The position numbers were made by a program, and so were the translations under genes. Below, in pieces: positions 2,884 to 44,529 of a stretch of DNA of 44,529 bases. Each line of letters starts with the position of its first letter. Position 1 is the stretch's first letter. The notes beneath the pieces are model-generated. The model was not told where the DNA came from, ran no database searches, and worked only from the letters and a program-made list of their open reading frames with translations. Source of the DNA: a virus; IMG/VR virus record IMGVR_UViG_3300045258_000119, positions 1 to 44,529 of that record; one strand, 5' to 3'.

Positions 2884-3342
2884 ATGGGATACATGACGGA
2901 CGGCCTGACGTTCAACACGCTGCGCGGCGGCAACCTCGCGCGGCTCCCGCAATTCAAGGACGCGCAAGGTCGCCTCTCGCACCCCGGTAAGGACGGCGAG
3001 GATTGGTCGCTGAACGATTGGATGACCGCCGTCACCGGCGAGGCGGGTGAGCTTGCGAACTTGCTCAAGAAGGTTCGGCGCGGCGACTTCACGCTCGAAG
3101 AGAAGCGTGGCGACATTGCCGACGAACTAGCCGACGTGGCGATCTATCTCGACATTCTCGCCATGCGCTGCGGCGTCGATCTTGGCCGCGCCATAATGAG
3201 CAAGTTCAATCGCACGTCAGAGCGCGTCGGTAGCTCTATTCGTATCGACGCCGAGGACTGGCACAACGATTTCAACGCCGCACCGCAATGGTGCTCCACA
3301 CCTGCCGATGCGAAGTTGGAAAGCGACGCAGGTGAACATTGA
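2884..3342 (+). CDS. MazG-like nucleotide pyrophosphohydrolase, 152 aa
   Basis: Proteins of the all-alpha NTP pyrophosphohydrolase superfamily (MazG, dUTPase-2) hydrolyse NTPs or dNTPs to NMP and pyrophosphate, or act on (p)ppGpp-related signals. The metal-binding signature is visible: GEAGELANLLKKVRRG (the ExxE helix, about residues 57-72), then ELADVAIYLDIL (about 83-94), giving the EExxD-type acidic set. Phage versions of this length are common, and their proposed roles include adjusting nucleotide pools and blunting starvation responses. ATG at 2884 follows GAAGGAGTAG. It ends on the start of the methyltransferase gene, so the two are probably coupled. Confidence 0.85.
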   Translation: MGYMTDGLTFNTLRGGNLARLPQFKDAQGRLSHPGKDGEDWSLNDWMTAVTGEAGELANLLKKVRRGDFTLEEKRGDIADELADVAIYLDILAMRCGVDLGRAIMSKFNRTSERVGSSIRIDAEDWHNDFNAAPQWCSTPADAKLESDAGEH

Positions 3343-4184
3343 TGCTGCGCGTCTTGGATCTGTTCAGCGGCATCGGCGGGTTTTCGCTTGGCCTTGAGCG
3401 CACGGGCGGATTCAAGACGGTCGCGTTTTGCGAGATCGATCCATTCTGCCGGCGCGTGCTGGCGAATCATTGGCCGGGAGTGAAGTGCTACGAAGATGTC
3501 CGAACCCTTGACGCCCCTACTCTTCAGCGAGACGGAATTGCCGTTGACGCGATCTGTGGCGGGTTCCCCTGCCAAGACATCTCGAGCGCTGGAAAGCGCG
3601 CTGGCCTCGCGGGTGAGCGCTCTGGGCTCTGGGGAGAATACTCGAGGCTCATTGGCGAATTACGACCACGCATCGCAATCGTGGAGAACGTCTCAGACTT
3701 GCGCGCTCGAGGGTTTGGAGACGTTCTCGGAGATTTGGCCGCGCTCGGGTACGATGCTGTCTGGGAAAGCATTCCAGCTTCAGCCCTTGGCGCCCCTCAC
3801 CGACGCGATCGGGTTTGGGTCATTGCCCACGCCAACAGTTGGCGACAGCAAGAGCGCGCGCAATTCAACGGCGCGACGCAACAAGATTCCACCGACCGGG
3901 ATTCACGCCGGCGACACGCTGACGGATTGGGTTACGAAGTGGCCGACGCCGACAGCCAACCGCAGGAGCGGCCTTCAATCGCATGGCCGGAACGCGATCC
4001 TTGGGAGTTTGAACCCGATGTGGGTCGAGTGGCTCCTCGGCTACCCGGCGACGTGGACCGCCTTCGCGGTCTCGGCAACGCGGTCGTCCCGCAAATTCCG
4101 GAGCTGATCGGCAACGCCGTTCTAGCAAGCATGGGCCTCAAGGCAGCGGTTGGCCAAATTGAATCGGATGGAGGTGAGCGGTGA
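3342..4184 (+). CDS. dcm: C5-cytosine DNA methyltransferase
   Basis: Transfers methyl from S-adenosylmethionine to C5 of cytosine in DNA. Motif I is DLFSGIGGFSLGLE (residues 6-19). Motif IV is GGFPCQDIS with catalytic Cys77. Motif VI is ENV (115-117), motif VIII is RRDRVWVIA (154-162), and motif X is GLGNAVVPQ (243-251). At 280 aa it is short but complete, with a small target-recognition region at about 165-240, as is usual in phage orphan enzymes. ATG at 3342 overlaps the MazG stop (TGATG). Likely roles are protection from host restriction or altered gene expression; the recognition site cannot be read from sequence. A second gene-like frame lies inside it at 3496-4107. Confidence 0.93.
   Translation: MLRVLDLFSGIGGFSLGLERTGGFKTVAFCEIDPFCRRVLANHWPGVKCYEDVRTLDAPTLQRDGIAVDAICGGFPCQDISSAGKRAGLAGERSGLWGEYSRLIGELRPRIAIVENVSDLRARGFGDVLGDLAALGYDAVWESIPASALGAPHRRDRVWVIAHANSWRQQERAQFNGATQQDSTDRDSRRRHADGLGYEVADADSQPQERPSIAWPERDPWEFEPDVGRVAPRLPGDVDRLRGLGNAVVPQIPELIGNAVLASMGLKAAVGQIESDGGER
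3496..4107 (+). CDS. Protein encoded out of frame inside the methyltransferase gene, 203 aa
   Basis: This frame is shifted relative to dcm and covers about residues 52-255 of that enzyme. Its translation is not random. It reads AKTSRALESALASRV (26-40), NYDHASQSWRTSQTC (55-69), LETFSEIWPRSGTMLSG (74-90), LAPLTDAIGFGSLPTPT (98-114), WPTPTANR (149-156) and GSLNPMWVEWLLGYPATW (170-187). From memory, these blocks in this order characterise phage proteins encoded beside or fused to cytosine methyltransferases (AKTS…WPRSGTM…LPTP…LNPxWVEWLMGxPxGW). ATG at 3496 has only a weak ribosome site (GAAG), so reinitiation or internal initiation would be needed. Family membership is strongly suggested by the motif string; expression is not shown. 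Confidence 0.7.
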   Translation: MSEPLTPLLFSETELPLTRSVAGSPAKTSRALESALASRVSALGSGENTRGSLANYDHASQSWRTSQTCALEGLETFSEIWPRSGTMLSGKAFQLQPLAPLTDAIGFGSLPTPTVGDSKSARNSTARRNKIPPTGIHAGDTLTDWVTKWPTPTANRRSGLQSHGRNAILGSLNPMWVEWLLGYPATWTAFAVSATRSSRKFRS

Positions 4185-4273
4185 TGCTATTTGCGCTCGG
4201 GCTCATTATCGGCGGGGTCATCGGACTTGTCGCCGGTCATATGGGCTGGCCGTTTTGGACGTGGAAGCCATGA
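4184..4273 (+). CDS. Single-transmembrane peptide, 29 aa
   Basis: ATG at 4184 shares its A with the dcm stop (TGATG), and TGA at 4271-4273 overlaps the next ATG at 4270 (ATGA). The peptide is one hydrophobic glycine-rich helix (MLFALGLIIGGVIGLVAGHM) followed by an aromatic end (GWPFWTWKP). Coupling on both sides and the clean hydrophobic composition argue for a real micro-gene. It could act on the host membrane early in infection; the function is unknown. Confidence 0.6.
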   Translation: MLFALGLIIGGVIGLVAGHMGWPFWTWKP

Positions 4274-4464
4274 CCACGCGAGGCGAAAAGCACTACTCCA
4301 ATCACGGCCCAATCTGCCCGCATTGTGAATATGCGCCGGGGTCGACTGAGCTTTACGACGAAGACCTTTGCAATCTGCGGTGCGAGGCTTGCGACAAGGA
4401 CTATCGGGTGAGCGTTTACGTGTCGTGGTCATGGACAACTTGGAAAGAGGGAGAGGAGCCGTGA
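4270..4464 (+). CDS. Zinc-ribbon protein, 64 aa
   Basis: ATG at 4270 lies in the previous stop (ATGA); earlier in-frame starts would read back through dcm in an unlikely composition. Two CxxC knuckles (CPHCEY and CEACDK, about 22 residues apart) with aromatic residues after them form a classical zinc ribbon, a fold used to bind nucleic acids or proteins. The stop overlaps the next GTG at 4461 (GTGA). Confidence 0.75.
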   Translation: MTTRGEKHYSNHGPICPHCEYAPGSTELYDEDLCNLRCEACDKDYRVSVYVSWSWTTWKEGEEP

Positions 4465-4661
4465 GCATAGGTCCCGATGCGCTCGCCGATTGGCGAAATG
4501 AACCCAAGCACATGGTCTCGGAAGACATTGCCGCCGAGATTGAGAACTTAGAGATGCCCTGGCTTGCCCTGCGAACTAGCGGCGTATCGGTAGGCGGCCC
4601 CGACGATTGGATGATCAGGCGCATCAAGGACCTAGAAACGGAATTGGAGCGCCGCGAATGA
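4461..4661 (+). CDS. Small hypothetical protein, 66 aa
   Basis: GTG at 4461 overlaps the preceding stop (GTGA). It starts MSIGPDALADWRNEPKHMVS and ends in a charged helix (RIKDLETELERRE) that may form a short coiled coil. The C-terminal region (GGPDDWMIRRIKDLETELE) recalls small phage proteins but allows no function call. It ends in an ATGA junction at 4658. Confidence 0.65.
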   Translation: MSIGPDALADWRNEPKHMVSEDIAAEIENLEMPWLALRTSGVSVGGPDDWMIRRIKDLETELERRE

Positions 4662-34260: not shown

Positions 34261-35573
34261 GCCATCGTCCCAAAGCGTGGACGGGGCTGCTGCGTGGTAT
34301 GCGCCACAGGCGACTTGTACTTGATCGCCATCAGCCCGAATGCGTCCGCGTCGTGGCTGTAATCATCGTGATTCGGGCCGAGGTCATTTCCATCCTTGTC
34401 ATATTTTGGCGCATACCAGCCGAGCGAGCGGCGCAGCACTTCCGTGGTGTCTTCGTTGAACCACATAATCGGGAACAGCCGTCGCGCCGCTTCGATCCGC
34501 TGCGAGGGCGCTTGCGCCACGCCGTCGCCAACGCCGCGTTGCGGCTCGGGCGTGTCGAAGCCCGCGTCCCGCCAGTGTTGGAAATAGCGCTTGCCGACTG
34601 TGTTGTCGTGGTCGCCGCCGTCATGCGGCAAGATGATCTGTGCCGCCTCATAGCGGCGCTTGCGCATCCATGCAACATGCTCAGCGATCGGCTGGCCGCG
34701 CGCGCTATAATGATCCAGAATGCGGATTTCGCGGGCCACGAATTGCACGGCGATGATCGAGTAGAGATCAGCCTTGGCGCCGGTCCCGCCGATGTCGTGG
34801 AACGTGCGTATCGTCAGCAGCGGATCGCGCGACACGCGACCAATGCGCCCCTCTTCCTTCGCCAGCATGAGCGCGGAGGCGTAGTAGGCGCCCTTTTGCG
34901 CTGTGCGATAAGCGCCTTCCCAGATGTGTTCGTATTGGTCGGGGCGCTCGCGCTTGTCGCGTAGCCGGTCTTTCTCCAGAACGCTCGGGAAGAACTCGTT
35001 GTCCCGATAGTTCATTTCGAGGCAGCGCACGTCGGGCTCGACAGACTTGCGGAAGCGCTTGTCTACTTCGCTATTGTGGCGCTCTGGGTTCCACGTCACC
35101 CAAATCTCTGAGTCGTCTTCGCGGACGGTTGGGATCAGCTTTTCCCATGCCTCTTCAGAGACCGGATCAGCCTCGTCCACCCAGCACAAGATAACCTTGG
35201 CCTTAGATTTGATGCTGTCCACGTTATGGCGCAGGCCAGCGAACTTGAACGCTACGCGACCATCGCGGGTGCGCACATACTTCTCGCCCACCTCGTAAAC
35301 CGCGCTCAGCCACTCGTCGCTGTGAATGGCCGCCTTGACCTCTTGGAGTGACGAGTCGTCCAGGCTGTTCATGTAGTCGCGGCAGCAGAGAATGATGCCC
35401 TCGCGCCCCTCCTGCGCCGCCTTAGCCCCGATCACTGCGGACATTTTGGCGAAAGTGCGCGTCTTGGCCGAGCCGCGCCCGCCGTAGGCACAGCGAAAGC
35501 GCGCCGGCCCTAGAAACAGCGGTATCAGCTTTTTGGGGATGACGACCTTGTGTTCGCCGCCTTCAAACGCCAT
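34257..35573 (-). CDS. terL: Terminase large subunit, 438 aa
   Basis: ATPase motor and headful or site-specific nuclease for DNA packaging. I chose ATG at 35573 (TTG at 35585 extends it). The ATPase part has Walker A GGRGSAKT (31-38) and Walker B ILCWVDEAD. The C-terminal RNase H-like nuclease has acidic residues at DIGGTG, HDGGDHD and HDADAFG. The order TerS-TerL-portal is standard. The ends of the linear DNA cannot be determined from the window alone; if the genome is circularly permuted, headful packaging fits. Confidence 0.92.
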   Translation of the reverse strand: MAFEGGEHKVVIPKKLIPLFLGPARFRCAYGGRGSAKTRTFAKMSAVIGAKAAQEGREGIILCCRDYMNSLDDSSLQEVKAAIHSDEWLSAVYEVGEKYVRTRDGRVAFKFAGLRHNVDSIKSKAKVILCWVDEADPVSEEAWEKLIPTVREDDSEIWVTWNPERHNSEVDKRFRKSVEPDVRCLEMNYRDNEFFPSVLEKDRLRDKRERPDQYEHIWEGAYRTAQKGAYYASALMLAKEEGRIGRVSRDPLLTIRTFHDIGGTGAKADLYSIIAVQFVAREIRILDHYSARGQPIAEHVAWMRKRRYEAAQIILPHDGGDHDNTVGKRYFQHWRDAGFDTPEPQRGVGDGVAQAPSQRIEAARRLFPIMWFNEDTTEVLRRSLGWYAPKYDKDGNDLGPNHDDYSHDADAFGLMAIKYKSPVAHTTQQPRPRFGTMA

Positions 35574-35847
35574 CGCCGCCCACAAGCTGGATTTTCGTAA
35601 CCATCTTGAGGTCGCCGCCGTCTGGCCCGCTCACTTCAACGGCTTTGGCGTGCATGTAAGGCGCAGCGCCGATCGCCATCTTGTCGCGTCGGTCTGATTC
35701 TTGGCTGCTGTCACGCATCACACGCAGCATGTATTCGAGCGGCGTTTCGCCCTCGCCTGCGCGCTTGATCGCCTCTTCGGTGACAACCGACTTAGCGCCC
35801 CTCGGTCGGCCGCCGCCGGGCCTCGCGCCCCCATGCCCGTTCGCCAT
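35563..35847 (-). CDS. terS: Terminase small subunit, 94 aa
   Basis: The opening GGARPGGGRPRGAKSVVT is the Gly/Arg/Pro-rich start found in many small terminase subunits, here followed by helices (EYMLRVMRDSSQESDRRDKM). It overlaps the large-subunit start by 11 bases, consistent with a TerS-TerL pair. TerS recognises the packaging site and regulates TerL. Confidence 0.7.
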   Translation of the reverse strand: MANGHGGARPGGGRPRGAKSVVTEEAIKRAGEGETPLEYMLRVMRDSSQESDRRDKMAIGAAPYMHAKAVEVSGPDGGDLKMVTKIQLVGGDGV

Positions 35848-39118: not shown

Positions 39119-39936
39119 GCCTGCCCTCCTGTTGGCGGCGGCCCCCACGTCGGATGCCATGTGCCGTCGTGCTCAAACAGCGCGCGCCGCCGCCGCTGCT
39201 CCTTGGCGTCTGGAACGGATGCGCGTTCGTCAGGCGTGAGGTATTTGCCCTCAAGGATTTTCGCCGCGCCCGCCTGGCTCACAAAAAAATCGAAGTCCAT
39301 GCGCCAGCCGCGATCATTGGCCCCGCCGAGGAAGCTCTGCCGCCGCGCCTCGGCGACTAAGCGAAGCCATCCGTCCTTACCACCTAGCCGTCGCCACGCT
39401 GCTCGCGCCTTGATGCGCCGGTTCTCGGTAAATTCTCGGAGGTGAACCCAACCACATCGCTCAGCGGCCTCATTGTAGCTCTCGATGGCTTCGGGGAGAT
39501 TGGGTGGCCGCTCGGCCACTATTCCCTGACGGTTCTTAGTGTTTGGTTCGAACGTAGTGGGATAGGACAGATTGGCCGCTGGCTCGGTCGTATTTGGCCG
39601 CTGGTCAGATTGTCCGCTGGTCAGATTGTCCGCTGGACCACCATCGGCCAAATTGTCCTCTGGCGCGAGAGGCATCGCGAACTGAATAGAATCAGTTGCG
39701 TAAGACCCATTTTGGCGCCGCCGGTCGCTCCGTACGAGCACGCCATCCTCCTCTAAGTCAGCCAAAGCGCGCCGCACGGTACGGTCCGAGCACTGCGCCT
39801 CCCGTGCTGTCAGTTTTTGCGAGGGCCAACCAAAGCCGGTTGGGTCCATGCGGTTCGCGAGTACGAGTAAAACCGCCTTATGTGTAGCGCTCCTTACGCG
39901 CCGTTTCAGCGCCCAGGTGATGGCCTGCACGCTCAC
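39115..39936 (-). CDS. Replication initiator/O-like protein with winged helix, 273 aa
   Basis: GTG at 39936 overlaps the helicase stop. An N-terminal winged-helix domain is clear (SATHKAVLLVLANRMDPTGF, AQCSDRTVRRALADLEEDGV), typical of phage replication protein O and its relatives that bind the origin. A polar linker and a C-terminal domain (NEAAERCGWVHLREFTENRR) likely contact the helicase. Directly before the DnaB helicase, as usual in lambda-like and P22-like phages. Confidence 0.75.
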   Translation of the reverse strand: MSVQAITWALKRRVRSATHKAVLLVLANRMDPTGFGWPSQKLTAREAQCSDRTVRRALADLEEDGVLVRSDRRRQNGSYATDSIQFAMPLAPEDNLADGGPADNLTSGQSDQRPNTTEPAANLSYPTTFEPNTKNRQGIVAERPPNLPEAIESYNEAAERCGWVHLREFTENRRIKARAAWRRLGGKDGWLRLVAEARRQSFLGGANDRGWRMDFDFFVSQAGAAKILEGKYLTPDERASVPDAKEQRRRRALFEHDGTWHPTWGPPPTGGQA

Positions 39937-41294
39937 GACGCCTCTCCCCAGATCGCGCCGGTGGGAACGTCCATCCAGATTTTGACGTGGCTGCGCTGGC
40001 CGCTACGGGCCTTGTCCACCACCAAAGTGCACTCCCGCGAGCGCATGGCGAACAGGTCTTCTTCCGAGCGCAAATGCGCCGGTTTTCGCTCGGCGTAATA
40101 AGCCTTACGGTGCAGCAGAATGACCACCGACGCGGCTTGGGAAATGGCCCCGCCATAGTTCAGATCGGTGGCGTTAGGGAGCCGGTCGTCGCCATCGGCA
40201 CGCGCCCCTTCTTTAGTGATTTGGGAGAGCGCCACAACCGCCACGCCAAGGCGTTTGGCGAGGCTCAGGAGCCCTTCGGAGCGGGCGTTGGTGCGCTCTA
40301 GCTGGCTAGGGAAACGCGCGCCCTGCTCGGCCGCTATAAGCCCCTCGTGGTCGATAATGAGTGCGCCGGGCTGAATGCCTTCGCGTTGCATCTTGCGGAA
40401 TAGGCGTCGCGCCGCCGCTTCGATCTGGGAGAGCGAGCGACCGGGGCGGGCGTCGATGTAGATCGGCAGCGTCGCCGATGCTTTGGCGGCGCCGCGGAGC
40501 TTGTCCCATTGCGCCGGTTTCAACTCGCCGCGCTGGGCGGTCAGATAGTGAGGATTATCGGCGCGGTGATCGACATCGAAAGCCAGCGCCGTGGCGGTGC
40601 GCAGGCCGATTTGCAGGCGGTCCATCTCAAGATGCACTTCGCCGACACCCACGCCCTGCGTGGCGACGGCGCGCGACAGCGCCGAGCCGAACAGGCTCTT
40701 GCCCATGGAGGTTGCGCCGCCGATGACCCAAAGCGTACCGGGTTGCAGGCCGCCAGTGACGCGATCGAGGTCTGCAAAGCCTGTGGATAATCCGCGCGCT
40801 TCGCCCAATTCGGCGCGCTCGATCGATTCGCAGGCGTCCACCCCAAGCTTTTCCCAAGCGTCGGCGTCAGCGTCGCCCTGGGCGATTTCCTGTAAACGCA
40901 CCTCCAACGCCGCGAGCGGGTCGGCCTCTTCGCCGCCGGCAAGCGCGATGGCGTCTTGTGCGGCGATGATGACGGCGCGACGCCGCGCCAGCGAACGCAA
41001 TAGCTCGGCATAGCCCTCAATCTGGCGGGCCAGCGGCGCGGCTTCGGTGTAGAGCCGCATGAGATAGCTGACGCCGCCGATCTCGGAAAAATAGCGCTCG
41101 GCCCATTCGCGCAGGGTCTGCACGTCGATCAGCCGCTGGGCGCGATGGCGAGCCAGCATCTCGTCCCAGAGCGCGCCATGCGGACCCTCGCTGAAATGCT
41201 CAGCTCGCAGCGACAGCCGCTCAACCCAGCGCGGGTCGAATAGCACGGCGCCCAGAATCGCTTGCTCGGCCTGGAGGTTCTGGGGGTCGCTCAA
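39933..41294 (-). CDS. dnaB: Replicative DNA helicase, DnaB type, 453 aa
   Basis: The family opening (QNLQAEQAILGAVLFDPRWV) requires the TTG at 41294, which overlaps the previous stop. The N-terminal helical domain is followed by a RecA-like ATPase: Walker A GGATSMGKSLFG (192-203), Walker B region LIIDHEGLIA, and the DLNYGGAISQAASVVILLHR motif with the arginine finger region. Ring helicase for phage replication; with the O-like protein it should load host polymerase. No phage polymerase or primase was seen. Confidence 0.92.
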   Translation of the reverse strand: MSDPQNLQAEQAILGAVLFDPRWVERLSLRAEHFSEGPHGALWDEMLARHRAQRLIDVQTLREWAERYFSEIGGVSYLMRLYTEAAPLARQIEGYAELLRSLARRRAVIIAAQDAIALAGGEEADPLAALEVRLQEIAQGDADADAWEKLGVDACESIERAELGEARGLSTGFADLDRVTGGLQPGTLWVIGGATSMGKSLFGSALSRAVATQGVGVGEVHLEMDRLQIGLRTATALAFDVDHRADNPHYLTAQRGELKPAQWDKLRGAAKASATLPIYIDARPGRSLSQIEAAARRLFRKMQREGIQPGALIIDHEGLIAAEQGARFPSQLERTNARSEGLLSLAKRLGVAVVALSQITKEGARADGDDRLPNATDLNYGGAISQAASVVILLHRKAYYAERKPAHLRSEEDLFAMRSRECTLVVDKARSGQRSHVKIWMDVPTGAIWGEAS

Positions 41295-41503
41295 TGGACG
41301 GCCCGCTCGCGCAGCGGCTCTTCTGGAAACGCCCGCATAATCAAGGGCCAGCGTGGCGCAAACGTCCCATAGTGCGCAGCGAGTGATGCGGGAAATCTCG
41401 GCCTCGTCGCAGCCCGAATTCGTGCAGCGCCAGGATCGAACAATCTGAGATGTGCCGCCATCGGTTCCGCTGGCGCGGCGAGAATCGTTTCGTCAGGAAG
41501 CAT
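41291..41503 (-). CDS. Small hypothetical protein, 70 aa
   Basis: ATG at 41503 lies inside the end of the GcrA-like gene. The protein (MLPDETILAAPAEPMAAHLR, then SLAAHYGTFAPRWPLIMRAF) has no motif. A 41-bp stretch of it (41437-41477) is identical in DNA to 8430-8470, where it is read in another frame. Confidence 0.6.
   Translation of the reverse strand: MLPDETILAAPAEPMAAHLRLFDPGAARIRAATRPRFPASLAAHYGTFAPRWPLIMRAFPEEPLRERAVH
41437..41477 (+). repeat. 41-bp direct repeat, copy B
   Basis: Identical to 8430-8470, but read in a different frame (APAEPMAAHLRLF) in the 70-aa gene. The same DNA in two frames at two distant sites suggests a DNA-level function or recent transfer. Confidence 0.9.
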
Positions 41504-41843
41504 TGCGCGCCTCCCAGCGCTCACGCCGGCGCGCGAGCCGCAGCGCGTGCTGGACCTCAGCCAACGACAGCCCGGTTTCGTTCATCGCCTCTTCAAAGGC
41601 GTCCATGACGATAGCAGCGGCGAGCACGCTTTCCGGCGCTGGCTCTTTGGGGGCCGACTGCTTGGGGCGCATGCAGTCGGGGTTGCGCTCGCGCGCCCGA
41701 TACATTGCCCCGATGACAGCATTGCGCCCGCCGTCCGGGTAGTCGGCAAAGCACCCCAATTGGGTGGCGATCTCGCCGTAAGAATAGCCTAATTCGTGTA
41801 AGTCCAAAGCGCGCGTTAAGCGCTCGGCTGGCCAAGACACCAT
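41493..41843 (-). CDS. GcrA-like cell-cycle/transcription regulator, 116 aa
   Basis: ATG at 41843 follows GGAGGGCGGA. The N-terminus (MVSWPAERLTRALDLHELGY, SYGEIATQLG, then GGRNAVIGAMYRARER) matches the DNA-binding helix-turn-helix of GcrA, whose consensus is 'W..ER...L..LW..G.S..QIA..LG.VTRNAVIGK.HRL'. An extra eight-residue insert (CFADYPDG) lengthens the turn. GcrA is an alphaproteobacterial sigma-70 cofactor that acts at methylated GANTC promoters. The C-terminal part (MDAFEEAMNETGLSLAEVQH) is different from cellular GcrA. A phage copy could redirect host cell-cycle transcription. Confidence 0.75.
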   Translation of the reverse strand: MVSWPAERLTRALDLHELGYSYGEIATQLGCFADYPDGGRNAVIGAMYRARERNPDCMRPKQSAPKEPAPESVLAAAIVMDAFEEAMNETGLSLAEVQHALRLARRRERWEARNAS

Positions 41844-41938
41844 TCCGCCCTCCGTCAAAAGCAAAACGTATGGGCGCCCCCGCGCCCGCAGCAATTGCTA
41901 GTCCCTACCTGTTCGCTTCGCGCGTCAAGACCAAAGCG
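41844..41938 (-). promoter_or_regulatory. Intergenic control region with GC hairpin upstream of the GcrA-like gene
   Basis: A hairpin of GGGCGC and GCGCCC with a four-base loop (41872-41887) is followed on the - strand by TTTTGCTTTT, like a terminator or attenuator. Upstream is TTGACG with a weak -10 about 19 bases on (GACTAG). The region would separate the NinB end from the GcrA-like start and could set their relative expression. Confidence 0.5.
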
Positions 41939-42295
41939 TTAAGATTTCGTTTGTATACGCACCGATTCCAGCAGTGACAGCGGCAGCGCTTTGAACTTGA
42001 CCCCGCGCGTCTCGCCAAAAATCTCGATGAAGGTCTGAAACTCGGCCATTTCGGCAACCCCCATGGAGCGGGTGCGCGAGCCGACCAGCACGAAGCTGGC
42101 GCCATCCTCGCCCATCACCATGCGCTGTTCGCGCTTGAAGGTGGCTGTGAGAAAATCCTTCCATTCGTATTTGTTCATGGTGATCTGGCGCCGCTGCCAA
42201 TCCTGCCACGGCAGTTGCTCGGAAATGTCGGCAAGGAGCGACCACATGCGCGCGTTTTGTTCGATTGAGCGCACGGACGCCTTCGGGGGCGTCAC
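41939..42295 (-). CDS. ninB: NinB-like recombination protein, 118 aa
   Basis: GTG at 42295 overlaps the annealing-protein stop (GTGA). The core (SIEQNARMWSLLADISEQLP, QITMNKYEWKDFLTATFKRE and MVMGEDGASFVLVGSRTRSM, then AEMAEFQTFIEIFGETRGVK) follows the NinB (lambda Orf-type recombination mediator) family. NinB/Orf binds single-stranded DNA and helps recombination proteins. Next to the annealing protein, as usual. Confidence 0.85.
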   Translation of the reverse strand: MTPPKASVRSIEQNARMWSLLADISEQLPWQDWQRRQITMNKYEWKDFLTATFKREQRMVMGEDGASFVLVGSRTRSMGVAEMAEFQTFIEIFGETRGVKFKALPLSLLESVRIQTKS

Positions 42296-43128
42296 GCTCG
42301 CTCTAGCTCTTCGATACGATCGAGCGCCGCCTCGAAATGCTCCTCGGCTTCGTCCTTGAACACCCAGCCCGCAACCCAGGCCGCCACTGTCGCCTCGGTG
42401 AACCAGAACTTGAGGCCGTCCGCATCGCGCGCTTCGACAAAGCCTTGCACCTTGTCGGTGAAGCGCCCCCATTCGGGCCGCTGGTTGCGCGCGTTCTCGG
42501 TGTCGATCTCGCGCCCGGTTTTGGGATTGATGACGACATTGCTTCGGCGATCAGTGTGCGGGCGAGACGCAGGGGGTTGGGGGAACGTCTCGCCCGCTTC
42601 CGGCGCTGGGCTGGGGATAGCGGAGGCGCCTGGAATGGTTTCAATCTCGGTTTCGTCAAGCAGCCCAAGCCCGCAGATCGACAGCGTGGCGCGGCGCTTG
42701 GCCTTGGTGGAAGCCTTCATAATGGCGTTCGCGCGGTCGTCGCCTTTCTTGCCGGCGATGGTGACGGAGCCGATGTCCATGTCGGTGCGGCCTTCACCGT
42801 TTTGCACCTTGACCGTCACCGAAAAGATGCCCTCGACCTCCTCTTGATCCATATCCACGACGCTGATTTTGTGGATGGCGCGCAGCTGATCGGTGCAGGC
42901 TTTCTTGGCGTAGAGCACCAGCTTGCCGCTTAAGCTTAGATACTCAAACGGCTGCGTCAGCGGGTTAAGCCCCGCCATCTCGCAGAGGCGCAGGTAGTAG
43001 GTGTTACGCTGCTCGGGCGAGAGCGCCTTCAGGTCGCCTTTCACCAAGATTTGCTCAATTGCCGAAGCCGCGCTCACCGGCGCGACGGCAGTGCGTTCAG
43101 CGCGCTTGGCCGCTAATTCACCTGTCAT
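42292..43128 (-). CDS. RecT/Red-beta-like single-strand annealing protein, 278 aa
   Basis: ATG at 43128 overlaps the stop in front. The N-terminal domain has LSPEQRNTYYLRLCEMAGLN then PLTQPFEYLSLSGKLVLYAK, like Bet/RecT proteins ('..R..GLdP....I…'), then DQLRAIHKISVVDMDQEEVE and AIMKASTKAKRRATLSICGL. The C-terminal third is Pro/Ala-rich and ends in helices. These proteins anneal complementary strands for phage recombination. No Red-alpha-type exonuclease was recognised beside it. Closest family is uncertain (RecT, Bet or ERF). Confidence 0.7.
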   Translation of the reverse strand: MTGELAAKRAERTAVAPVSAASAIEQILVKGDLKALSPEQRNTYYLRLCEMAGLNPLTQPFEYLSLSGKLVLYAKKACTDQLRAIHKISVVDMDQEEVEGIFSVTVKVQNGEGRTDMDIGSVTIAGKKGDDRANAIMKASTKAKRRATLSICGLGLLDETEIETIPGASAIPSPAPEAGETFPQPPASRPHTDRRSNVVINPKTGREIDTENARNQRPEWGRFTDKVQGFVEARDADGLKFWFTEATVAAWVAGWVFKDEAEEHFEAALDRIEELERA

Positions 43129-43730: not shown

Positions 43731-43757
43731 GTCAACAATAGTTATAAAGTTGTTGAC
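43731..43757. promoter_or_regulatory. 27-bp inverted repeat, probable RHH operator
   Basis: GTCAACAA and TTGTTGAC are perfect 8-bp arms with an 11-base spacer. It lies between the divergent RHH gene and the Ala-rich gene and overlaps the -35 region of the rightward promoter (TTGACG at 43753-43758), so binding would block that promoter. On the - strand it spans TATAAC, a possible -10. Confidence 0.75.
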
Positions 43758-43781
43758 GTGTGTTTCGGGTTGGCGTAACGC
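43753..43781 (+). promoter_or_regulatory. Candidate promoter of the rightward unit
   Basis: TTGACG, a 17-base spacer and TAACGC (weak -10) precede the GGAGGA ribosome site and ATG at 43804. The -35 region overlaps the right arm of the inverted repeat. Confidence 0.5.
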
Positions 43782-43803
43782 TTCCTTAATTGGAGGAGCC
43801 CGT

Positions 43804-44529
43804 ATGTCCATAACCGAACTGACCAGCCAAGAAGCATCCGCCCGCGTGCTGGCGTTTCTGAAAGAGGATCGTCTGATCCAAGGCATGTGGCACAGGCACA
43901 ACGGAGGCGGGCGCGAATTGGCCTGCCTGATCGGTTCGATCGATCCCAGCATTCAGTTGCCCGAGCAATGCCCGTCCGGCGTCATGCCGCAATGGCTGGC
44001 GCACGTCACGGTGACGCTATTCGACGGTCAGAGCAAAGCCGACGCGCTCGCCTGGACGGCGCGCTACGCCGATCTGATGGCGCGCTGGCATGTGTTGGAT
44101 GACGCGGCGTGGAAGCGTTGCGAAGTGCGTTTCAAGATTGCGTGTGTGCGTTCCGCAGTCGCGTCCGCCGAGCCTGTTTGTCACAACAAAGATTACTGGC
44201 CGAAGGTGACCAAAGCCGCGCAGCTCGTGTGCGATGCGCTTGAAGGTAAGGGCGATTTGAAAGCCGCCGCCTACGCCGCCCAAGCCGCCGCCGCCGCCGC
44301 CGCCTACGCCGCCCAAGCCGCCGCCTACGCCGCCCAAGCCGCCGCCTACGCCGCCGCCGCCACCGCCGCCACCGCCGCCACCGCCGCCGCCTACGCCGCC
44401 CAAGCCGCCGCGTACGCCACCACCGCCGCCGCCAAAGCCACCGCCGCCACCGCCGCCGCCGCCGCCGCCTACGCCGCCACCGCCGCCGCCGCCAAAGCCA
44501 CCGCCGCCGCCGCCGCCGCCTACGCCGTT
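43804..44529 (+). CDS. Alanine-rich repeat protein, N-terminal part (runs off the right end)
   Basis: The frame opens with ATG at 43804 after a GGAGGA ribosome site and stays open to the last base (242 codons). Residues 1 to about 153 are an ordinary mixed-composition domain (starts MSITELTSQEASARVLAFLK) that I do not recognise. From 44263 it becomes an Ala-rich array with Tyr, Gln, Thr and Lys at intervals (units such as AAAYAAQ and TAATAAT), which should form a long helix. Alanine codons are mixed before 44263 and almost only GCC after it, so the array looks like a recent microsatellite-type expansion. The frame continues at bases 2-205; joining at the 126-bp overlap gives about 261 residues. 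It is the first gene of the rightward unit, next to the operator. The existence of the gene is secure; function and exact repeat number are not. Confidence 0.85.
   Translation, partial: MSITELTSQEASARVLAFLKEDRLIQGMWHRHNGGGRELACLIGSIDPSIQLPEQCPSGVMPQWLAHVTVTLFDGQSKADALAWTARYADLMARWHVLDDAAWKRCEVRFKIACVRSAVASAEPVCHNKDYWPKVTKAAQLVCDALEGKGDLKAAAYAAQAAAAAAAYAAQAAAYAAQAAAYAAAATAATAATAAAYAAQAAAYATTAAAKATAATAAAAAAYAATAAAAKATAAAAAAYAV
44263..44529 (+). repeat. GCC-rich codon repeat array
   Basis: Imperfect tandem array of GCC codons broken by TAC, CAA, ACC and AAA codons, with a repeated 21-bp theme of TAC GCC GCC CAA plus GCC codons. It continues at bases 2-142. All units are multiples of 3, so slippage would change protein length but not frame. 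Short-read assembly probably cannot fix the copy number. Confidence 0.85.
44404..44529 (+). repeat. Terminal direct repeat, right copy
   Basis: Exact copy of bases 20-145. If the ends are joined here, the circle is 44,403 bp and the Ala-rich frame passes through without a shift. Confidence 0.9.

Follow-up and report, generated by a model that had tools for sequence, protein, structure and literature searches.

A GcrA-like phage protein without a detectable sigma-binding domain, encoded upstream of dnaB

The locus at 41493..41843 (minus strand) of a 44,529-base virus record, the whole of which is here called the window, raises the question of whether a phage protein of 116 residues (P0001) imitates the regulator GcrA or competes with it. 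A sequence-only reading had proposed both possibilities. Passages of a review describe GcrA as a DNA-binding domain (DBD, residues 1–45), a linker, and a domain termed SID (residues 108–173) that binds sigma region 2 (PMC7403470). From the reading frame, Pfam, and profiles of the DBD and SID, we assign P0001 as a protein with a GcrA-type DBD and no SID. Phage-borne GcrA as such cannot be claimed as novel, given that homologues have already been published: one is described in the phiCbK group (gp222), in print since 2012 (PMC3556154), and others in Agrobacterium phage Atu_ph08 (PMC6630229), brucellaphage Y17 (PMC11836647), phiLM21-like prophages (PMC12429752), and a coral-associated phage (PMC11309003). 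In the same passages, Gill et al. suggest that phage GcrA may change the replicative state of the host, and phage GcrA has so far been read as an activator that pushes the host into replication (PMC3556154). The main-text passages of the literature searched contained no mention of a phage GcrA without a SID. What is unusual about P0001 is the missing SID half, whereas phage GcrA genes were already known.

The gene appears intact. Its frame is open throughout, from an ATG start codon at 41843 to a stop at 41493, and a ribosome-binding-site-like GGAGG precedes the ATG in the sequence (41849..41853, minus). Its codon composition is coding-like, with GC contents of 0.66, 0.51, and 0.76 at the three codon positions, compared to 0.72, 0.48, and 0.77 for dnaB and 0.63, 0.52, and 0.65 for ninB. 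Upstream, separated by a gap of 95 bases, lies a gene for a NinB/Orf-type recombination protein identified by profile matches (41939..42472, minus). Downstream, a 77-residue frame with no assigned function (41291..41524, minus), whose ATG at 41503 falls inside the 3′ end of P0001, overlaps both P0001 and the gene for a DnaB-type replicative helicase (39933..41294, minus; Pfam PF03796 and PF00772). These successive overlaps uphold the proposed location in the replication operon. The gap between ninB and P0001 contains a GC-rich hairpin followed by a T-rich stretch (41872–41887); terminator-like sites around P0001 were no commoner than in shuffled sequences.

Several comparisons link the N-terminus of P0001 to GcrA. 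The PF07750 profile (positions 2–67) and the AlphaFold helices delimit a GcrA-type helix-turn-helix domain at approximately residues 1–53 (41685..41843, minus), and this N-terminal part ends RNAVIGAMYRAR. The reading had named a profile match to GcrA as a check, and one was found: Pfam PF07750 scored 27.5 bits against a cut-off of 26.9 (E = 4.6e-6; residues 3–73 on profile positions 2–67 of 155). In the genome scan the same model gave 25.5 bits, just below the cut-off, and P0001 therefore sits at the edge of the GcrA family by Pfam score. A DBD profile made from 12 GcrA-type DBDs, with P0001 left out, scored P0001 at 21.1 bits, compared to 6.4 for the best of 2000 P0001 shuffles; across the 875 six-frame segments of the window with at least 30 residues, the P0001 frame was the sole clear match (20.5 bits; next 6.3). 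By pairwise alignment, P0001 reached 79 at best, whereas 200 shuffles scored with the same set peaked at 57; this set was mostly picked by the motif RNAVIGKVHR and so favours a recognition-helix match. The claim that the N-terminal 60 residues match the GcrA DBD holds for roughly the first 55.

The NCBI curated equivalog model for GcrA (NCBIfam NF050816) has a cut-off of 280 bits; P0001 scored only 14.1, and three tested phage GcrA proteins with SID missed the threshold as well (56–137 bits). The best PHROG match was weak (16311; E = 0.0018), and this PHROG is also the best match of the full-length GcrA of viral contig L003 (58.9 bits). A weak Sigma70_r4_2 match (17.3 bits; cut-off 25.7) falls within the helix-turn-helix at residues 12–31. 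Searches by tblastn at E values up to 0.1 found no whole-protein relatives among 50,697 phage and 72,556 plasmid records. Likewise, no relative emerged from a genome-contig scan with P0001 or with the DnaB alignment, no viral contig matched the motif RNAVIGAMYR, and a phmmer search of PDB sequences returned nothing. We discounted a weak match between the P0001 tail and L002, since the shared MDAFEEAM was itself a search pattern. On these sequence comparisons, we read P0001 as a true but distant homologue of GcrA in one domain only.

We also compared this domain with that of Caulobacter crescentus GcrA (PF07750; PDB 7ye1, 5yiu, 5yix). Both proteins have an N-terminal helix-turn-helix with an RNAVIG recognition helix, but the Caulobacter protein has 173 residues, a SID, a turn shorter by six, and the residues K39, V40, and H41 in the recognition helix, whereas P0001 has 116 residues, no SID, and A, M, and Y at these positions (counted by eye on the alignment). 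Profile alignment and a survey of turn lengths locate a six-residue insertion at residues 31–36 (CFADYP; 41736..41753, minus), in the turn before the recognition helix; the insertion reported earlier is real, but measures about six residues by profile alignment rather than eight. In the survey, a simple pattern was applied to 75 sequences, of which 16 were unparsable. Among the 59 parsed GcrA-type sequences the turn had three to five residues in 53 and eight or nine in five (two of these proteins being identical), and that of P0001 was the longest at ten. The long-turn proteins are those of Synechococcus phage Ssp-JY42, Caulobacter phage DMCA, and viral contigs L060 and L024/L067. A long turn is thus unusual, yet common to the GcrA proteins of Ssp-JY42 and DMCA. 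Unlike P0001, the Ssp-JY42, DMCA, and L060 proteins keep the SID by profile and the L024/L067 protein keeps a Cys/His-rich tail by eye. The insertion may alter or abolish the DNA specificity of P0001.

The SID itself was not detectable. We built a SID profile from 11 SID-bearing proteins, and the scores of 61–104 bits for these same 11 are as expected; the low scores are the informative ones, namely −1.2 bits for P0001, −1.4 for Phaeobacter phage MD18, and 0.3 for Brevundimonas phage Kikimora. Among the 875 frame segments of the window (at least 30 residues), no SID match exceeded 5.6 bits, which argues that the gene is not split and that the SID is not encoded elsewhere in the record; we therefore rejected a split gene with its SID in a neighboring frame. 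The earlier statement that the C-terminus differs from the sigma-binding domain was correct as far as it went, but understated the matter. In place of the linker and SID of GcrA, AlphaFold models predict a C-terminal helical hairpin (residues 70–90 and 94–115; 41499..41636, minus). Pfam, PHROGs, and NCBIfam gave no match between the tail and any protein known to bind RNA polymerase, and the hairpin would most likely serve self-association or contact with a phage partner.

A first AlphaFold model, for which no alignment was used, had low confidence (pLDDT 64.5). The second, which rests on three aligned sequences, including two selected as relatives, has helices at residues 6–17, 22–28, and 39–53, with mean pLDDT of 80–91 in blocks of residues 1–50. 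The insertion forms a short helix (31–34) in an otherwise ordinary three-helix domain, which is followed by the two-helix hairpin (70–115, mean pLDDT 79). Foldseek returned no match at E ≤ 0.001 for either model. By VIA-align, the best structural row was the small terminase of phage G20c (Z 7.1, 50 residues, 2.3 Å, 26% identity), in an alignment that covers the helix-turn-helix alone. GcrA 7ye1, seen in VIA-align alone, aligned over 46 residues at 41% identity with Z 5.5, ranking 26th among helix-turn-helix chains, with 25 other rows having higher Z.

The position of P0001 is shared by full-length GcrA proteins in related phages. Two viral contigs found through the helicase gene (L003 and L004; helicase 68% identical) have the order methyltransferase, GcrA, Mom-family protein, dnaB, with one gene between GcrA and dnaB as for P0001. 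Their GcrA proteins are 100% identical, and that of L003 matches PF07750 at profile positions 2–152 of 155 (62.2 bits) with a SID present. The recombinase gene led to 41 viral contigs. Within the stretch available for each, L090, the recombinase of which is 60% identical, was the sole contig with a strong GcrA match and also the sole one with a DnaB match; L090 encodes a 145-residue GcrA with SID (62.4 and 26.0 bits) adjoining the DnaB match (35% identity), and two other contigs in this group gave weak DBD matches only. GcrA lies four genes upstream of dnaB in DMCA and two genes upstream in Ssp-JY42; Rhizobium phage RHph_Y1_10, with a terminase 51.6% identical, has a GcrA with SID near its replication genes. 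P0001 therefore resembles the GcrA proteins of phiCbK-like phages, Ssp-JY42, DMCA, RHph_Y1_10, and Atu_ph08 in being phage-borne and GcrA-type, and those of DMCA, Ssp-JY42, L003, and L090 in lying upstream of dnaB. In contrast to P0001, the members of this group examined here keep the SID, that of Atu_ph08 being known from passages of published text alone. Because L003/L004 and L090 have a SID-bearing GcrA at the corresponding place before dnaB, P0001 appears to stand in the GcrA slot and its lineage most likely lost or swapped the SID. The inferred orthology with the L003 and L090 proteins rests on position, sequence identity alone being insufficient.

Two side observations concern these contigs. 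In both L003 (1002–2867) and L004 (810–2675), the genes leading up to dnaB are those for an N6/N4 methyltransferase, a SID-bearing GcrA, and a DNA-modification protein of the Mom family, the last assigned (PF25680) from a Pfam run on L003 alone. A Mom-family gene also occurs in L002, where it follows a small gene resembling a helix-turn-helix.

We then surveyed how often phage GcrA proteins lack the SID. Caulobacter GcrA matched 34 of 50,697 phage records at E ≤ 0.01, including 26 Caulobacter phages, and at least 80% of the query was covered in 23 of the 34. An exact scan for RNAVIGKVHR, which favors canonical DBDs and gives redundant counts (L024 and L067 are the same protein), recovered 61 viral contigs and 59 proteins with a 3′ end. 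The SID scored at least 15 bits in 53 of these 59; three below this score (L024, L062, L067) still show a Cys/His-rich tail when inspected by eye, while the remaining three (L051, L055, L072) have neither. Together with MD18 (QJA43130.1, 124 residues) and Kikimora (USN15340.1, 173 residues), which like P0001 have no SID, this gives five SID-less GcrA-type proteins besides P0001. The MD18 and Kikimora proteins also resemble P0001 in having a DBD above the Pfam cut-off (66.6 and 45.9 bits), and differ from it in that their turns are of ordinary length and their tails are unrelated to its own. The MD18 tail (residues 54 or 55 to 124) is 75–83% identical to proteins in viral contigs L085, L086, and L087 (around position 2001) that have no GcrA DBD in frame. 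This finding indicates that domain exchange happens, with the DBD joined to other phage modules, and the MD18 protein (L008, 2495–2869) resembles a fusion of a GcrA DBD and a phage protein.

Further records bear on phage GcrA more broadly. The L051 record carries a second DBD match. In MW202785.1 (L007), an unannotated full-length GcrA with SID occupies 4010–4546, where a hypothetical protein is annotated on the opposite strand instead. Sulfitobacter phage pCB2047-A (L020, 15353–15850, minus) has two helix-turn-helix repeats with a DBD score of 19.3 bits and no SID match. The two-profile search gave 25.7 bits for the DBD and 30.2 for the SID in a Rhizobium phage and a best match of 10.8 bits, hence no clear GcrA, in a Paracoccus phage; Pseudomonas phage LUZ24 had no DBD match at E values up to 1.

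The suggested comparison of GANTC site counts with expectation revealed depletion: the window contains 60 GANTC sites against 155 expected under a second-order model, and this ratio of 0.39 is the lowest among the 16 palindromes of that form. In a small control comprising one phage each of Sulfitobacter, Paracoccus, and Rhizobium together with L003 and LUZ24, the same test gave ratios of 0.34 (second lowest), 0.02, 0.31 (lowest), 0.51 (9.2 kb, 12 sites), and 0.92, respectively. Paracoccus phage vB_PmaP_KLEP18-1 (L021), with three sites against 136 expected, showed the strongest avoidance among the phages compared. Since this phage has no clear GcrA, GANTC depletion says nothing about P0001; it supports the host assignment rather than the mechanism. 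Outside frames the sites were not enriched (3 against 4.1 expected, using a rough greedy gene set), and we rejected the idea that GANTC sites mark phage promoters. There were none in the 95-base gap upstream of P0001.

Relatives of other genes bear on the host. For the terminase, the top record is from a Microcystis phage and the other eight of the best nine are from Sulfitobacter (six), Rhizobium, and Paracoccus phages; these are among the best 15 of 1330 records, most of which have lower identity and come from phages of Pseudomonas, Vibrio, and Salmonella. The host is probably an alphaproteobacterium, and GANTC depletion and the terminase relatives are together suggestive, though not proof, of GANTC methylation in it. 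Support for this part of the reading is indirect and runs against the portal relatives listed, which are mostly from Pseudomonas phages or unassigned, with seven Sulfitobacter and five Rhizobium phages among 289 records. Two GcrA-carrying phages whose recorded host is Synechococcus likewise count against it. The window does encode a DNA methyltransferase as claimed (3339..4184, plus; PF00145, 139.8 bits; PHROG 363), but the enzyme is of the C5-cytosine type and not CcrM-like, leaving a partnership with the GcrA-like protein unsupported. The frames scanned, a part of all frames, contained no other methyltransferase.

The explanation we favor, while holding it tentatively, is that P0001, a SID-less GcrA-type protein, serves either to regulate through DNA binding or to compete with host GcrA, and cannot recruit sigma-70 in the manner of GcrA. 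P0001 would bind DNA, possibly at methylated GANTC sites; being unable to bring in sigma-70 the GcrA way, it would act during phage replication as a local DNA-binding regulator or host-GcrA competitor. Imitation of GcrA is correspondingly weakened, given that P0001 lacks the sigma-2-binding domain that GcrA works through. It would require the C-terminal hairpin to make a new contact with RNA polymerase, and we consider such an activator quite unlikely. Phage GcrA proteins more often have the SID than lack it (23 of 34 records and 53 of 59 proteins, as above), which makes activation likely ancestral, but P0001 lacks the SID, its tail resembles no known polymerase binder, and the weak Sigma70_r4_2 match falls in the helix-turn-helix. 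A possible, though still unlikely, alternative is that P0001 is a DNA-binding accessory of the replication module, for example in origin or helicase placement, that borrowed a GcrA-type domain and has no link to GANTC or sigma-70. The tight overlap with the dnaB operon and the lack of GANTC at its own start are consistent with this role, and a new specificity could arise from the insertion and the altered residues of the recognition helix; the SID-bearing GcrA proteins that related phages hold in the slot suggest instead a transcriptional ancestor.

Decay offers another account of the missing half. The weak family score, the odd insertion, and the want of a conserved whole-protein relative would fit a GcrA gene that is drifting after loss of its 3′ portion, but the intact frame, the GGAGG, the coding-like codons, the overlap with the next frame, and the predicted hairpin make such a remnant improbable. 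Chance resemblance is highly improbable: although only about 45 residues match, 25 helix-turn-helix rows outrank GcrA by Z, and the NCBIfam score is low, a generic helix-turn-helix converging on GcrA would have to account for the RNAVIG recognition helix, the leading SW, the shuffle and pairwise controls, and the presence of GcrA in the same slot in relatives. Least credible is a small-terminase-like protein. Small terminases likewise combine a helix-turn-helix with a helical hairpin, and the G20c protein gave the highest Z, yet that alignment spans the helix-turn-helix alone, and GcrA 7ye1 aligns at higher identity despite its lower Z. Moreover, no terminase profile matches P0001, and some 6 kb separate it from the large terminase, while a likely small-terminase gene, named from its position just upstream of the large terminase (35563..35847, minus), shares 71% identity over 72 residues with the L003 gene at the equivalent position. 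We rejected P0001 as the small terminase on these grounds.

Returning to the favored reading of P0001 as a regulator or competitor, a broader form of it is conceivable but doubtful, namely that alphaproteobacterial phages repeatedly detach the GcrA DBD from the SID and join it to other modules, yielding readers of methylated GANTC that occupy host cell-cycle promoters without activating them. On this equally doubtful view, such DBD-only readers would be naturally occurring dominant-negative factors acting on the GcrA/CcrM switch, in the present case placed in the replication operon. If a recurrent SID-less form is real, some phages would block or redirect the GcrA switch instead of activating it. 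The SID-less proteins also provide a natural set of DBD-only variants, one with a long turn, for asking which part of GcrA determines methylation-dependent binding.

Two minor observations concern the wider records. To our knowledge, GcrA is an alphaproteobacterial protein; Synechococcus phages PP438432.1 and OM868079.1 carry it, with the long turn seen for Ssp-JY42, and the recorded Synechococcus host of such phages may not be the true one. At the end of the window (43750–44529), an open frame with long Ala/Tyr-rich, AAAYAAQ-like repeats runs past the end of the record.
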